Source of the DNA: Halopenitus malekzadehii
GTDB taxonomy: Archaea > Halobacteriota > Halobacteria > Halobacteriales > Haloferacaceae
Length of the DNA: 64,000 nucleotides
Direction of reading: 5' to 3'
NCBI RefSeq assembly: GCF_900108505.1
Contig: NZ_FNWU01000009.1
Location: 1 to 64,000, forward strand
Below the pieces are notes generated by a model, which did not search any database, was not told where the DNA came from, and saw only the letters and a program-made list of their open reading frames with translations. The position numbers were made by a program, and so were the translations under genes. Positions within the stretch are counted from its first letter, which is position 1. Each line of letters opens with the position of its first letter. Shown piece after piece: positions 16,704 to 20,943 of this stretch.

Positions 16704-16777
16704 GGGCCAATAGCTCAGTCAGGTTGAGCGCTCGGCTGATAACCGGGAGGTCCACGGTTCAAATCCGTGTTGGCCCA
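16704..16777 (+). tRNA. tRNA-Ile (GAT)
   Basis: The acceptor stem pairs GGGCCAA with TTGGCCC, discriminator A. The anticodon stem-loop has GAT at 16738-16740 and the T arm is CACGG-TTCAAAT-CCGTG. A TTAAAC box at 16665-16670 stands about 35 nt upstream. The 3' half is the attachment site of the integrated element that follows. Confidence 0.95.
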
Positions 16778-16847
16778 CCTACAACGTCCACGGTCTTTGG
16801 CCGTGGCGTGTTAGGGGCCGGGAACTCCCCAGCCACCTAATTCCGTC
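16750..16847 (+). repeat. attL: left 98-bp direct repeat (overlaps tRNA-Ile 3' end)
   Basis: It begins GTCCACGG in the tRNA T arm and runs through the tRNA end into a segment with internal hairpins (CCACGG...CCGTGG and GGGG...CCCC). It matches 18523-18621 with one indel and three substitutions. Confidence 0.9.
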
Positions 16848-16860
16848 TTACTATTCCACG

Positions 16861-16932
16861 AACAGAACCCTCTATAATGATAGGGTTCAACCATAATTTC
16901 CACGCACGATGCCGCTACGTGTGGGTTCTGTT
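16861..16932. repeat. Inverted-repeat cluster inside the element, next to attL
   Basis: A perfect 10-bp inverted repeat, AACAGAACCC (16861-16870) and GGGTTCTGTT (16923-16932), encloses a second partial one (AACCCT...AGGGTT). No gene is seen in 16848-17081. This could be a recombinase or repressor binding region. Confidence 0.5.
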
Positions 16933-17081
16933 TAGCCGCTCGCTTTGAACGAGCCTACTGAGCGTTGAGCCGAATCGTTGTCGGACTGCAGTACTGGAAT
17001 CCTATTCAGAGTATTTATTCTATGGAAAGCCGATGAATTTCCCATCAGTGTCTGCGTGCGAACTGAGGCGGCCCGAGTTAT

Positions 17082-17249
17082 TCAGAAAAGACTACTAATC
17101 CACATCAGAGATGAGACGACAAATCCACTAACAAATGCTATCAATAGGAAGATAGCGACCCATCGCCGTGCGTTATCCGGGAGATACGGTATCTCACTTG
17201 GATAAATCGGGGCAAGCGTCCCTTTTTCGTCTGAACCGCGTCCATCCAT
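17082..17249 (-). CDS. 55-aa single-pass membrane protein of the integrative element
   Basis: ATG 17249 to TGA. A soluble N-terminus (DEKGTLAPIYPSEIPYLPD) is followed by a 25-residue hydrophobic helix containing WVAIFLLIAFVSGFVV. Codon use is less G/C-biased than in neighbouring genes, fitting foreign origin. Not recognised; it could serve in superinfection control, or be cargo of the element. Confidence 0.5.
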   Translation of the reverse strand: MDGRGSDEKGTLAPIYPSEIPYLPDNARRWVAIFLLIAFVSGFVVSSLMWISSLF

Positions 17250-17396
17250 ATAACGTGATACAAGCCCTACACTATTGTTCTTTCTGCTGTCTGACTTGCC
17301 ATTCGACCACTTATATTCTTAATCGATAGGTGAACCACCTGCACTGAGCGATTTACTTGGTAGTACGGCCAGAGGGCAGGGGTTTCCTCTACATCT

Positions 17397-18437
17397 TCAC
17401 AGGTCATCCAAATAATCCCGACGTTGTTCGGCTTTTTCTCGTTCACCACGTCGGTCGTAGTGTTTCTCAAGCACATCCAGACTCACATTCATCCGGTCAC
17501 TAACGACCTTCTCCGGCACGTCCTCCGACAAGTGGTGGGTGATTGACCCACGACGTATCGCGTGTGGACTCACACTCGATGGGCAGGTACTCGCCTTGTT
17601 ATTCTCCAATGCTTCACAGGAGTCTATCTCGCGGTCGTGAGGACACTCTCCTGTGTATTCACAAGGACGAGTGATACGGTAGATACTGTCTCGAAGCGTC
17701 GATTTAGCGGGACGCCCGCACCGACCGGAGAATAGCGGGCTTCGTCCCTTACCATCCCCGCCCTCATCGCGGTTGTACTGGAGATACGCATCCAGCGCAT
17801 CACACACATTGGCGCTCAGAGAAACGTACCGTGCACCTTCGGTCTTGTTTTTGAGCCGCGTTCCCGTCTCGGGACGGTGGTGGAGTTCGAGATATTGTTC
17901 CTCTCGATCGTAGTCCTCTACATCGAGACTGTGTGCGGCTCCGATTCGGATACCGGTATGCCACAGTACCTCGATGAGCGCGTGCGTTCGAGTCGCAAAC
18001 TCGAATTGGCGAAGATACTCAAGCAATTGCGCCGCCGCCTCATCGCTGAGCATCGCTGTTCGCCGGTCCTCGGTCTTTCCGAGAGAGGGCAACAATATTT
18101 TCTCGTGAGTCTCGCTCGCTACCGCGTCGATATTCTCGCACCACTTGATGAAGACGCGGATGGTCGATAACTGAGTGACCATCGTGACGTTGTTGAGGTC
18201 GCCGTCATCGCGCCGCCACATCTTGTACCGTTGGAGGTCCCGTCCCGTCAGTTCGTTCAGGTTGTCTATCTCCGCGACCTCATCGCACCACCGGACGAAG
18301 TGCTTGAGACGGTAGTGATGGGCTTGTATCGTACTCTGTGAGACTTCGCTCTCACGCTGTGAGAGATACATTTCCTTTGCCTCTGCCGGTCGCATTGGTT
18401 CGAGTTTATCTGTGGTCAAGTCTGGTCCCGTGAACAC
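17397..18437 (-). CDS. Tyrosine recombinase/integrase
   Basis: About 346 aa. An N-terminal SAM-like core-binding domain (STIQAHHYRLKHFVRWCDE) is followed by a catalytic domain with HTGIRIGAAHSL (catalytic Arg), PHAIRRGSITHHL (H-x-x-R) and the nucleophile Tyr in LEKHYDRR. A Cys cluster (CEYTGECPHDREIDSC) is inserted before the HxxR box, as in many haloarchaeal integrases. The start is uncertain: GTG 18437 is chosen. The frame stays open further upstream, to a TTG at 18536, but that stretch runs into attR and is not typical. It should catalyse integration and excision at the tRNA-Ile repeats. Confidence 0.88.
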   Translation of the reverse strand: MFTGPDLTTDKLEPMRPAEAKEMYLSQRESEVSQSTIQAHHYRLKHFVRWCDEVAEIDNLNELTGRDLQRYKMWRRDDGDLNNVTMVTQLSTIRVFIKWCENIDAVASETHEKILLPSLGKTEDRRTAMLSDEAAAQLLEYLRQFEFATRTHALIEVLWHTGIRIGAAHSLDVEDYDREEQYLELHHRPETGTRLKNKTEGARYVSLSANVCDALDAYLQYNRDEGGDGKGRSPLFSGRCGRPAKSTLRDSIYRITRPCEYTGECPHDREIDSCEALENNKASTCPSSVSPHAIRRGSITHHLSEDVPEKVVSDRMNVSLDVLEKHYDRRGEREKAEQRRDYLDDL

Positions 18438-18522
18438 CCAAACGCTCCTCCAATGGCTCGACGCGATGAGCGATCTGTTTGATAGGCCTAATTGCCTGAT
18501 TTGTTGCGTTTCAGGCCCTCTA

Positions 18523-18621
18523 GTCCACGGTTTCAAATCCGTGTTGGCCCACCTACAACGTCCACGGTCCTTGGCCGTGGCGTATTAGGGGCCGGGAACT
18601 CCCCAGCCACCTAATTTCGTC
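18523..18621 (+). repeat. attR: right direct repeat with partial tRNA-Ile copy
   Basis: It repeats the tRNA-Ile T arm and 3' acceptor strand plus about 70 bp beyond. An extra T makes the T-loop sequence GGTTTCAAAT. It is not a tRNA gene: the 5' half is absent. Confidence 0.9.
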
Positions 18622-18775
18622 CGATACGCTAACTCTTGAGAGAGTTCTCCTTGAATATTTAAATAGAACGTACTCATCCTCTCTCGCCATCCTGCGGTGT
18701 CCAGCACTTGGCGGGGAGATCTACTGTGGACGGACTCCACATCGAGCAGCCCTCGCACCTGCTGGGCCTGTGTGT

Positions 18776-19375
18776 CTAGATCCCGAGCCACTCGTCGGTC
18801 CGAACCTCGTATCCGTTCGATCGACAGAGCGCTGCTGCTTCCCGGCGCACTGCTCGGGAAGTCGGGAGGCGTTCCGTGTCGTGGATTCGATCGACGATCC
18901 AGTCGCTAATACTGCGCACTCCGTCGTCATCGTCATCTGCGTCGATCGCGTTGAGTTCCTCGAACGTCTTCTCATAGGCTTTGCGCTGCGTCCACCCGAA
19001 CTCCGTCTGTGGAAGCGTCTTGCTCGCTTCCACGACCCGTTTCATCGCCGCCGCAACGGTCGGCGCTGCCACCTGTACACGAACGGCAGCCGGTGAGTCG
19101 AACTGCTCTGTGTCAGTCTCCGGAAGTAGGGCCTCGATGCTGTAGCTGCCCTCGGCTGACTCAACCTCGTACTCACCGATCGTCGCGACGATGGTCGTCC
19201 CGGTTGCTGGGAATGAGACTGCTTCGAGCGCCGCCTCAAGCCCGGTGCGTTCGTCGGTCTCGATCGGCGGCTCTTGTTCGTCGCCACGTTCCAGTTCAGT
19301 GGCGATCGCGCGCTCTTGCTGGCGTCGCTCGGCGTCCTGTGCCTGCTTGTCTCGACCGTTCTTATCATCTGCCAT
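18776..19375 (-). CDS. Conserved haloarchaeal protein, DUF5789-like
   Basis: 199 aa, highly charged. It begins MADDKNGRDKQAQDAERRQQER and has a central FPATGTTIVATIGEYEV and a C-terminal SRAVRREAAALCRSNGYEV followed by WLGI. The family (I recall it as DUF5789) is widespread in haloarchaea and of unknown function; the basic C-terminal helix could bind nucleic acid. It stands just outside attR in an AT-richer patch. Confidence 0.65.
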   Translation of the reverse strand: MADDKNGRDKQAQDAERRQQERAIATELERGDEQEPPIETDERTGLEAALEAVSFPATGTTIVATIGEYEVESAEGSYSIEALLPETDTEQFDSPAAVRVQVAAPTVAAAMKRVVEASKTLPQTEFGWTQRKAYEKTFEELNAIDADDDDDGVRSISDWIVDRIHDTERLPTSRAVRREAAALCRSNGYEVRTDEWLGI

Positions 19376-19579
19376 TCAGTATAGTTCGGTCTCTAGCCGG
19401 ATAGCTCTGTGGTGGATCTATGTTGGTGAATGCTCCGGGTCCTCAGTACACGGGATGTCTCTATCGTATCCTCACACCACTTGAACGCTCTTTGTTTCCC
19501 TTTCGTGATGACGAGGGACTTCGACTCCCGAATCACTTAACCCCGAGGCGAGCCATTGTATTTCAGTGAACTGATTCAT

Positions 19580-20053
19580 ATGACCGTTGATATTGAAGTT
19601 CCTGATCCGCCCGACCTCTCGAATCGGGGTATGCCGCGTGAGTTTGAGTGGCAAGAAGAGACACTCGGAGCGGAGGACTTCTACCGTGGGGATATCGAGG
19701 ACCTCCTCCAGGATGGTGCGTGGCAGGAAGGGTTCAACGAATGGGTTGAATACACCACTCTCGATGAAGAGCACGTTGACAGTATCAACGACCAGCGGTT
19801 GTTCCAGGCGTTCGATTTCTACTGGGATCCAAGCGAAGACCGCCTTCGGTTCGATGCACCGCGCGTCCCCGACGAATGGCAGCAGGAACACCCGATTGAG
19901 TCGCGTGATTCGATCACACGATCGCTGATTGCTGGTGAATTGGCGGATCTCGGCCACGCGGTTCTGGAGGTTCTAGAGGGATATCTCGACCGCAACGACG
20001 AAGACTCCGACTATGGCTGGGGTGCAGACACCTACGGCACACGCGATGAGTGA
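19580..20053 (+). CDS. Acidic protein of unknown function
   Basis: 157 aa from ATG 19580. Rich in Asp, Glu, Trp and Tyr, with no membrane segment, Cys pair or recognised motif (REFEWQEETLGAEDFYRGD, YWDPSEDRLRFDAP). Codon use is less G/C-biased than the core genes nearby. An in-frame TTG at 19556 is less likely, since TGTATTT at 19558-19564 looks like the promoter. Its place in the AT-richer patch suggests acquired DNA. Confidence 0.6.
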   Translation: MTVDIEVPDPPDLSNRGMPREFEWQEETLGAEDFYRGDIEDLLQDGAWQEGFNEWVEYTTLDEEHVDSINDQRLFQAFDFYWDPSEDRLRFDAPRVPDEWQQEHPIESRDSITRSLIAGELADLGHAVLEVLEGYLDRNDEDSDYGWGADTYGTRDE

Positions 20054-20138
20054 CTCGGCACCAGGATCGACTCAGCCTCAGGATCGATTTCACGGGTCTT
20101 GGGAGAGCCGACACGCTCGGGAATCGTGAGAACCGTAC

Positions 20139-20172
20139 TGTCCACGGATACCTATTGTCCACGGATACCTAT
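20139..20172 (+). repeat. Perfect 17-bp tandem duplication
   Basis: Two adjacent copies of TGTCCACGGATACCTAT lie at 20139-20155 and 20156-20172, in the 290-bp gap before the pilin gene. Confidence 0.9.
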
Positions 20173-20258
20173 CTATAATATCTAGGGCTGTCTTCCCTCC
20201 AGCGACAGCCGGTGAAACGTATTTTCCCGTTTCACGATCTGATACTGTGGACCGAACG

Positions 20259-20268
20259 TTTAAATAAT
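20259..20268 (+). promoter_or_regulatory. TATA-like box upstream of the pilin gene
   Basis: TTTAAATAAT is the strongest promoter-like element in 20054-20343. It lies about 80 nt before the pilin ATG, implying a 5' leader of about 50 nt. Confidence 0.45.
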
Positions 20269-20343
20269 CATTCCGAATTCGATCGAACAACGACCGTCGC
20301 TGCTCGGACGTGATCGTTCGACGGTGGGGGTTGGTGTATACCT

Positions 20344-20781
20344 ATGAACCTGAACGAACTCTTCACCGAGGACCGCGCAGTGAGCCCCGTGATCGGCGTC
20401 ATCCTGATGGTCGCGATCACCGTCATTCTGGCCGCCGTGATTGGCACGTTCGTGCTGGGGCTTGGCGACGATCTCCAGAACACGCAACCGACCGCAAGCT
20501 TCGACTTCGAGTTTAACTCGACGAACGGCACCACGATCTCACACGCCGGCGGTGACACGATCGCAGACGGTGCCATTGTGACGATCAATGCCACCGGTGA
20601 CGGCCTTGCCGGTGACACCACCTGGGGAACCCCGATCTCCGCCGGTGACAGTGAACACGTCCGGAAGAGCGACGGTGATGGAAACTGGTCGGGTGAGACC
20701 GTTTCGGTGAACTGGGAGTCCGCCGACGGGAGTTCCTCGGCACAGCTCGGCGCACAGGACGCCCCGACGATCGACGGGTAA
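20344..20781 (+). CDS. Type IV pilin (PilA-like)
   Basis: 145 aa. A short, charged class III signal peptide and hydrophobic H-domain are visible: TEDRAVSPVIGVILMVAITVILAAVIG. Cleavage by PibD is expected just before the AVSPVIG block. The rest is Thr/Gly/Asp-rich with sequons (NST, NGT, NAT) and ends APTIDG. Haloarchaeal pilins of this type form adhesion pili. No pilB/pilC genes are adjacent, so it would use an assembly system encoded elsewhere. Confidence 0.85.
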   Translation: MNLNELFTEDRAVSPVIGVILMVAITVILAAVIGTFVLGLGDDLQNTQPTASFDFEFNSTNGTTISHAGGDTIADGAIVTINATGDGLAGDTTWGTPISAGDSEHVRKSDGDGNWSGETVSVNWESADGSSSAQLGAQDAPTIDG

Positions 20782-20943
20782 CGCCCCGGCAGATCGGTAG
20801 CGCTTCCACACAGCGTCAGCAGCCGCGTGGACCGTCTCGCGATCGGTCGTCTCGTGGTGGGTCCGATCGATCGACCACAGATGCCCGCTCGGTCGGACGA
20901 AACGGAACTTTAATGCGCCGACCGGACGCAGCATCGAACGAGA

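Follow-up and report, generated by a model that had tools for sequence, protein, structure and literature searches.

A probable minimal integrative element of a distinct SNJ2-type lineage at haloarchaeal tRNA-Ile genes

A tyrosine integrase gene that lies beside a tRNA gene, with little else between two direct repeats, may be a stable remnant or a minimal integrating unit. This question is raised by a tRNA-Ile(GAT) gene (positions 16704-16779, plus strand, ARAGORN) in the 64,000-nucleotide stretch of DNA analyzed here (the window), which belongs to a 69.8-kb contig of a 3.14-Mb haloarchaeal genome. Direct repeats of 90 nt, 97% identical, occupy 16758-16847 and 18532-18621 and can be extended to a tRNA-side copy of 98 nt (attL, 16750-16847, plus strand, from repeat comparison) and a distal copy of 99 nt (attR, 18523-18621, plus strand) at 96% identity, with a spacing of 1,774 bp. 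A chance origin of the pair is excluded (E 2e-37), and there is no further copy elsewhere in the whole 3.14-Mb genome. The initial annotation had placed repeats of about 98 bp at the T arm of tRNA-Ile, and they are as it described. The GC content of the element is 52%, and 47% in its cargo part, between flanks of 69-70%. We consider it likely that 16750-18621 is a minimal site-specific integrative element belonging to a distinct lineage of SNJ2-type elements, class A, dedicated to tRNA-Ile(GAT).

The 98-nt repeat consists of the last 30 nt of tRNA-Ile and ~68 nt downstream, and the latter form two hairpins (fold z -4.1). The first (16784-16809, plus strand) varies in sequence and conserves its stem through compensatory pairs, and the second (16810-16841, plus strand) has a CTCCCCAGCCA arm that is almost invariant. 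With a query made of the tRNA 3' end and this trailer, 137 of the 170 family genomes gave a match, a few of the weakest involving the tRNA part alone, and 11 of 13 consensus pairs have changed on both sides in what is a rough alignment. Since most family genomes have these hairpins after tRNA-Ile and the stems covary, we take the segment to be a conserved trailer of the tRNA gene, which we infer to serve as a terminator or processing element. The length of the att repeat, which had been thought unusual, is thus unremarkable: the repeat combines the 3' end of the tRNA with the natural trailer that most family genomes have with or without an element, and archaeal att repeats of more than 100 bp are on record (PMC8371274). 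No Rfam family matched the trailer; on that strand the tRNA alone matched well. The same trailer (window 16778-16847), absent from Rfam, is also borne by the free pleolipovirus HRPV-9 (Halorubrum pleomorphic virus 9; NC_048160.1, 16004-16085, minus strand).

That the trailer is a conserved native feature lends something to the idea that tRNA-Ile and its trailer were duplicated ancestrally, the integrase having come to lie between the copies by chance. However, the trailer is mostly single copy (56 of the 72 tRNA-Ile loci examined), and a second copy is always accompanied by an insertion (16 of 72). Each distal copy in the relatives starts in the T-arm region, at an identical point in unrelated genomes, and always lacks the tRNA 5' part. 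We give such an ancestral duplication practically no credence; tandem repeats lacking an element, an observation that the initial annotation had named as one that would count against its integrative element, were not seen, the element-free trailers being single. The common starting point suggests that crossover is confined to the tRNA part of the repeat, where the T-arm/acceptor 3' part of the gene would be the target of integration.

Between the repeat copies lie a minus-strand integrase gene, ~550 bp of AT-richer DNA and one doubtful ORF. The integrase is encoded by a 379-aa frame (17397-18536, minus strand) that matches Pfam Phage_integrase (1.6e-10), SAM_1 (1.2e-9) and a PHROG integrase (1.3e-34); the frame is intact, which bears out the tyrosine recombinase that had been read here. 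Because homology begins at about residue 40, the likely start is GTG 18437, giving a protein of ~346 aa (17397-18437), or ATG 18395. The frame is open from 18536, and its upstream part (18438-18536) runs into the distal att, as it does in several relatives, so the sequence upstream of the gene would differ between the integrated and circular forms. Both repeats lie outside the conserved body of the integrase, which therefore has the classical, not the suicidal, gene layout.

The integrase is 45.8% identical to that of SNJ2 over 97% of its length, well within the 30% identity over 60% of length by which the SNJ2-type family is defined (FEMS review, PMC8371274), and it clusters with the SNJ2, HHPV4 and HRPV9 integrases in our tree. 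All 28 relatives among the genome contigs are haloarchaeal or unplaced Euryarchaeota, in line with the restriction of SNJ2-type integrases to Halobacteria, and the phage matches that span 80% or more of the query come from haloviruses. The enzyme thus belongs to an already described family.

Outside the integrase gene, no ORF in the interval exceeds 75 aa. The 55-aa membrane protein noted by the initial annotation is an ORF with one hydrophobic segment (17082-17249, minus strand); no homologue of it was found, relatives included, so it may not be a gene. A 69-aa ORF has no convincing match in relatives either, and it overlaps the end of the integrase. The inverted-repeat cluster likewise survives in part: there are two strong hairpins, both inside the repeat, and a small one at 16865-16888 spotted by eye, but the repeat finder returned only one palindrome besides the trailer hairpins. 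The small hairpin falls within a conserved left end (16848-16930, plus strand) with a motif around gGTTcAACCnnnnTTtCCaCGC, which is common to the closest pairs of elements, is captured by an nhmmer profile and possibly represents an integrase arm site. The remainder, 16931-17396 (no strand assigned), is a variable slot for cargo, almost empty in the window and without homology to the cargo of any relative.

We searched for related integrases in 170 genomes of the family and 392 of the order, with one genome per species. Eleven further class A integrases were found at ~70-80% identity, making 12 in all, and 11 of the 12, from three GTDB families, are flanked by att copies at tRNA-Ile and agree in their ends and orientation. 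Ten of these att-flanked integrases form a clade (support 100/99), and that of G365 is the eleventh. Thus, the genome search that the initial annotation had called for shows the repeat-integrase-repeat unit recurring with other flanks and other cargo, across 11 genomes and three families. The elements are uniformly small: 1.77 kb in the window, 1.78 in G108, 1.85 in G399, 1.91 in G406, 1.94 in G031, 2.6 in G431, 2.7 in G365, 2.8 in G172, 3.0 in both G170 and G096, and 3.3 in G165. The units of G165 and G365 are separated from the tRNA by another element, which means that their near repeat is a displaced copy in its own right. The exception is G009, whose class A integrase (75% identity) is away from tRNA-Ile, with no att repeats recognised; this gene (L067:9513-10556) is 0.27 kb from tRNA-Ala(CGC) and may be a relocated copy or a retargeted element. 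The next relatives of the integrase (53-60% identity) belong to elements of 2.6-10 kb that occupy tRNA-Phe, -Pro, -Tyr and -Arg.

All 12 class A coding sequences are open, with no stops, and dN/dS is ~0.05-0.1, a range to be read with dS near saturation for most pairs; for the pair G096/G031 the values are 0.020/0.37. Strong purifying selection, together with the near absence of cargo in the window and in G108, would also suit an integrase domesticated by the host, for example to resolve or manage insertions at tRNA-Ile, in an element that is no longer mobile. Class A is, however, patchy in its presence (about a dozen among hundreds of genomes) and frequently decayed, the element is low in GC, and the integrase tree is incongruent with that of the hosts, the Halorubrum genomes falling in two places and family f4 also in two. 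We regard domestication as very unlikely.

Comparison of close pairs shows how these units are built. In G031/G096, G399/G431 and G170/G165, homology covers the left end and then the integrase 3' end through the distal att, with unrelated DNA between the left end and the integrase half. The chassis would accordingly start with an attachment end, made of the tRNA 3' end, the two hairpins of the trailer and another ~70-90 bp. To this it would add a slot for 0.5-1.9 kb of cargo, an integrase gene reading towards the tRNA, as all class A integrases do, and the distal attachment site; cargo is swapped between identical chassis, as these comparisons show. G108 has nothing larger than 65 aa in its slot and the window only the 55-aa ORF. 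G031, G399 and G406 carry a small protein with two TM segments and a YWxxRYxExEK motif (pairwise E 8e-7 to 9e-20), which was found in no other of 322 genomes and whose AlphaFold model, of low confidence (pLDDT 56), contains helices only. A multi-TM protein is common to G165 and G365 (E 4e-14), and G165 has in addition a probable transposase ORF. Of the remaining elements, G172 encodes two small proteins that are probably membrane-bound, G096 a probable lipoprotein of 467 aa, G170 a protein of 506 aa that matches NERD weakly, and G431 an HNH protein together with one of 227 aa. A defence role was considered and dropped: among the class A cargo, the G096 protein left out, there was no strong PADLOC match and just a weak one for the HNH protein.

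No replication or transfer gene was found in the unit, as an integrative plasmid or ICE would require, and genes for spike, VP3-like, ATPase and replication proteins, expected of a betapleolipovirus provirus, are absent. Nor is it an integron, which would have an IntI-type integrase and attC cassette sites, since the integrase is of SNJ2 type and the sites are tRNA-Ile 3' ends. The two accessory proteins of SNJ2 are critical for its integration, according to Wang et al. 2018 as cited in PMC5867852, where homologues of these proteins (Orf2 and Orf3) are reported to be rare among proviruses too. We found none in the ten class A elements scanned (G365 excluded), and class A therefore either does without them or uses others. 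An SNJ2 Orf3 homologue (44%, 1e-19) is located on L124 of G168, ~5 kb from tRNA-Ile, and the same genome has a relic of the class A left end.

The obvious alternative is that the interval is a deletion remnant of a larger virus or plasmid, for example an HRPV-9-like provirus, which kept its att sites and integrase and is now immobile. Elements of 3.75-19 kb do occupy the same tRNA (in G104, G087, G125, G160, G191, G118, G143 and G023), relics with truncated integrases exist, and the cargo slot of the window is nearly empty. The integrases of the larger elements, however, are only 37-48% identical to class A, fall on other branches of the tree and read away from the tRNA, as the HRPV-9 integrase must likewise do once integrated; no class A element has an integrase that reads outward with its 3' end at the distal att. 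Integrase phylogeny and orientation speak against a deletion product of such a larger element, and larger relatives with the same ends, which would have favored one, were not encountered: the larger elements have another integrase in the opposite orientation. Every class A integrase is intact and under selection, and equally small elements with differing cargo appear in three families. A remnant is therefore unlikely, and of the two possibilities left open by the initial annotation it is the minimal integrating unit that the 11 genomes and their selected, intact integrases favor.

How such a unit would enter its target can be considered from the trailers. The attP position of HRPV-9 has already been shown (PMC7911831), and this free virus carries a tRNA-Ile 3' end and trailer beside its integrase. 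The left arm of the virus, ATTCAGCCGCTA, which stands immediately ahead of the shared CCCGTGTTGGCCCACC, recurs at the distal end of the G143 and G160 proviruses. Both have the viral trailer TTAATTGAATTCGGGC..., or a near copy of it, next to the tRNA, and their distal trailers are of a type widespread in the genus. This arrangement indicates that the tRNA-side trailer comes from the element and the distal trailer from the previous occupant. Within class A, G172 points the same way, as its distal copy and what follows it correspond to the sequence next to the tRNA in G180; G108 has hardly any trailer on the tRNA side. We suggest that the class A integrase would recombine the two repeats within the T-loop-to-acceptor segment to give a circle of ~1,774 bp, which could re-enter any tRNA-Ile gene at that segment. 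In the restored tRNA gene, the host would contribute the 5' part and the element the 3' end together with its trailer, and the earlier trailer would be displaced to the far end, so that attR in the window would be a tRNA 3' fragment with the trailer that stood beside the tRNA before insertion. Replacement of the trailer is seen by comparison in class A relatives and in HRPV-9-type proviruses; excision as a circle and catalysis by the class A integrase alone are predictions. Since the elements and a free virus both carry a replacement trailer, the trailer presumably matters to tRNA-Ile expression or integration.

With no replication, virion or transfer gene, the element must be moved by something else. 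Five of the 11 class A elements adjoin another unit at the site: a remnant with a class B integrase fragment in G108, an element of ~43 kb in G172, a class B (pleolipovirus-type) integrase directly beside the unit in G165 and G365, and a 1.5-kb Fic-gene unit lacking an integrase in G431. The Fic/DOC unit (L213:10620-12110) lies between two tRNA-Ile att remnants, directly behind the class A element, and in G108 a second att copy with the class B integrase fragment (L063:13069-13660), 3 kb past the class A element, is a case of tandem accretion with decay. The simplest mover would be joint travel with larger same-site elements of this kind. Tandems, the missing replication and transfer genes, and an HRPV-9 attP with the same tRNA 3' end and trailer, through which circles could fuse, would also fit a non-autonomous passenger, in which the integrase works and spread needs a helper such as a pleolipovirus or plasmid at tRNA-Ile. 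No virus or plasmid bearing an inserted class A unit was found in the viral and plasmid searches, and there were no free class A copies in viral_contigs, IMG/VR, PLSDB or the phages, the best full-length plasmid match being 54%. Chromosomal DNA also passes between haloarchaea through cell fusion, a route that needs no helper. Strict helper dependence is quite possible, though not what we would expect; the class A element is probably a self-integrating minimal unit with swappable cargo that hitchhikes.

The left-end profile, run with nhmmer on tRNA-Ile loci at E below 1e-3, matches only beside tRNA-Ile, in the class A elements and in G150, G168, G137, G162, G142, G140 and G035. Integrase fragments are kept in two of these relic genomes, G142 and G137, which together with the left ends indicates that insertion and decay occurred many times. 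These relics and lone left ends show that decay is common and count against the self-integrating reading, as do the lack of any excised circle or extrachromosomal copy in the viral and plasmid searches, the att-less integrase of G009, the missing SNJ2 accessory proteins and the scant tRNA-side trailer of G108. In the window itself, 2.3 kb of 58% GC (18622-20886) lies between the distal att and conserved chromosome, with genes for a DUF5789 protein, a 165-aa orphan and an archaeal type IV pilin-like protein; homology to the sister genome G001 resumes at 20886, and the segment is possibly an older insertion at the hotspot whose own att has been lost.

Among known systems, SNJ2 and HHPV-4 share with class A a homologous classical tyrosine integrase and insertion at a tRNA 3' end. 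In contrast to SNJ2 (~17 kb), class A elements span 1.8-3.3 kb, target tRNA-Ile, form their own clade and have neither viral genes nor Orf2/Orf3 homologues. HRPV-9 and the proviruses resembling it (class B) use the same tRNA-Ile site, an attP with the tRNA 3' end and two-hairpin trailer, and an integrase at the distal end, but HRPV-9 is a 16-kb viral genome whose integrase is 44% identical, on another branch and read away from the tRNA. The crossover segment of HRPV-9/class B also starts further downstream, at CCGTGTTGGCCCACC, as compared with GTTCAAATCC... in class A. Archaeal integrative plasmids and satellites, such as pSSVi with SSV2 and the pT26-2 and pTN3 families, have integrase-mediated tRNA insertion in common with class A, and the satellite lifestyle is conceptually close (PMC8371274, PMC11389934), but they possess replication genes and reach several kb or more. 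The integrases of SSV/pTN3 type are, moreover, split by att, unlike that of class A. PICMI and tycheposons, which count among the minimalist islands and satellites, have bacterial hosts and are larger than class A elements. They resemble class A in being small and tRNA- or site-anchored, with an integrase and few cargo genes. For these, helper dependence is shown or suspected (PMC11389934). A limited search of the open-access literature turned up neither a dedicated sub-3.5-kb tRNA-Ile integrase lineage with exchangeable cargo nor a structured trailer carried by elements and a virus.

Class A is apparently a previously unrecognised family of tiny elements, with the same ends and enzyme and one or two genes swapped. 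A more elaborate reading, which we put forward tentatively and regard as rather doubtful, is a cassette-like system at tRNA-Ile, where a sub-2-kb chassis would swap single cargo genes, often for small membrane proteins, accumulate at one att in tandem with pleolipovirus proviruses and with cargo units that lack an integrase, and spread as a satellite by fusing with viruses like HRPV-9. If that were true, few known self-integrating satellites would be smaller. The fixed ends and integrase with changing cargo offer a clean natural template for building a small vector that integrates at tRNA-Ile in haloarchaea. Class A also shows that a nearly bare archaeal tyrosine integrase is able to endure in several families as a lineage of its own, and "integrase-only" loci beside tRNA genes should therefore not be dismissed as debris.
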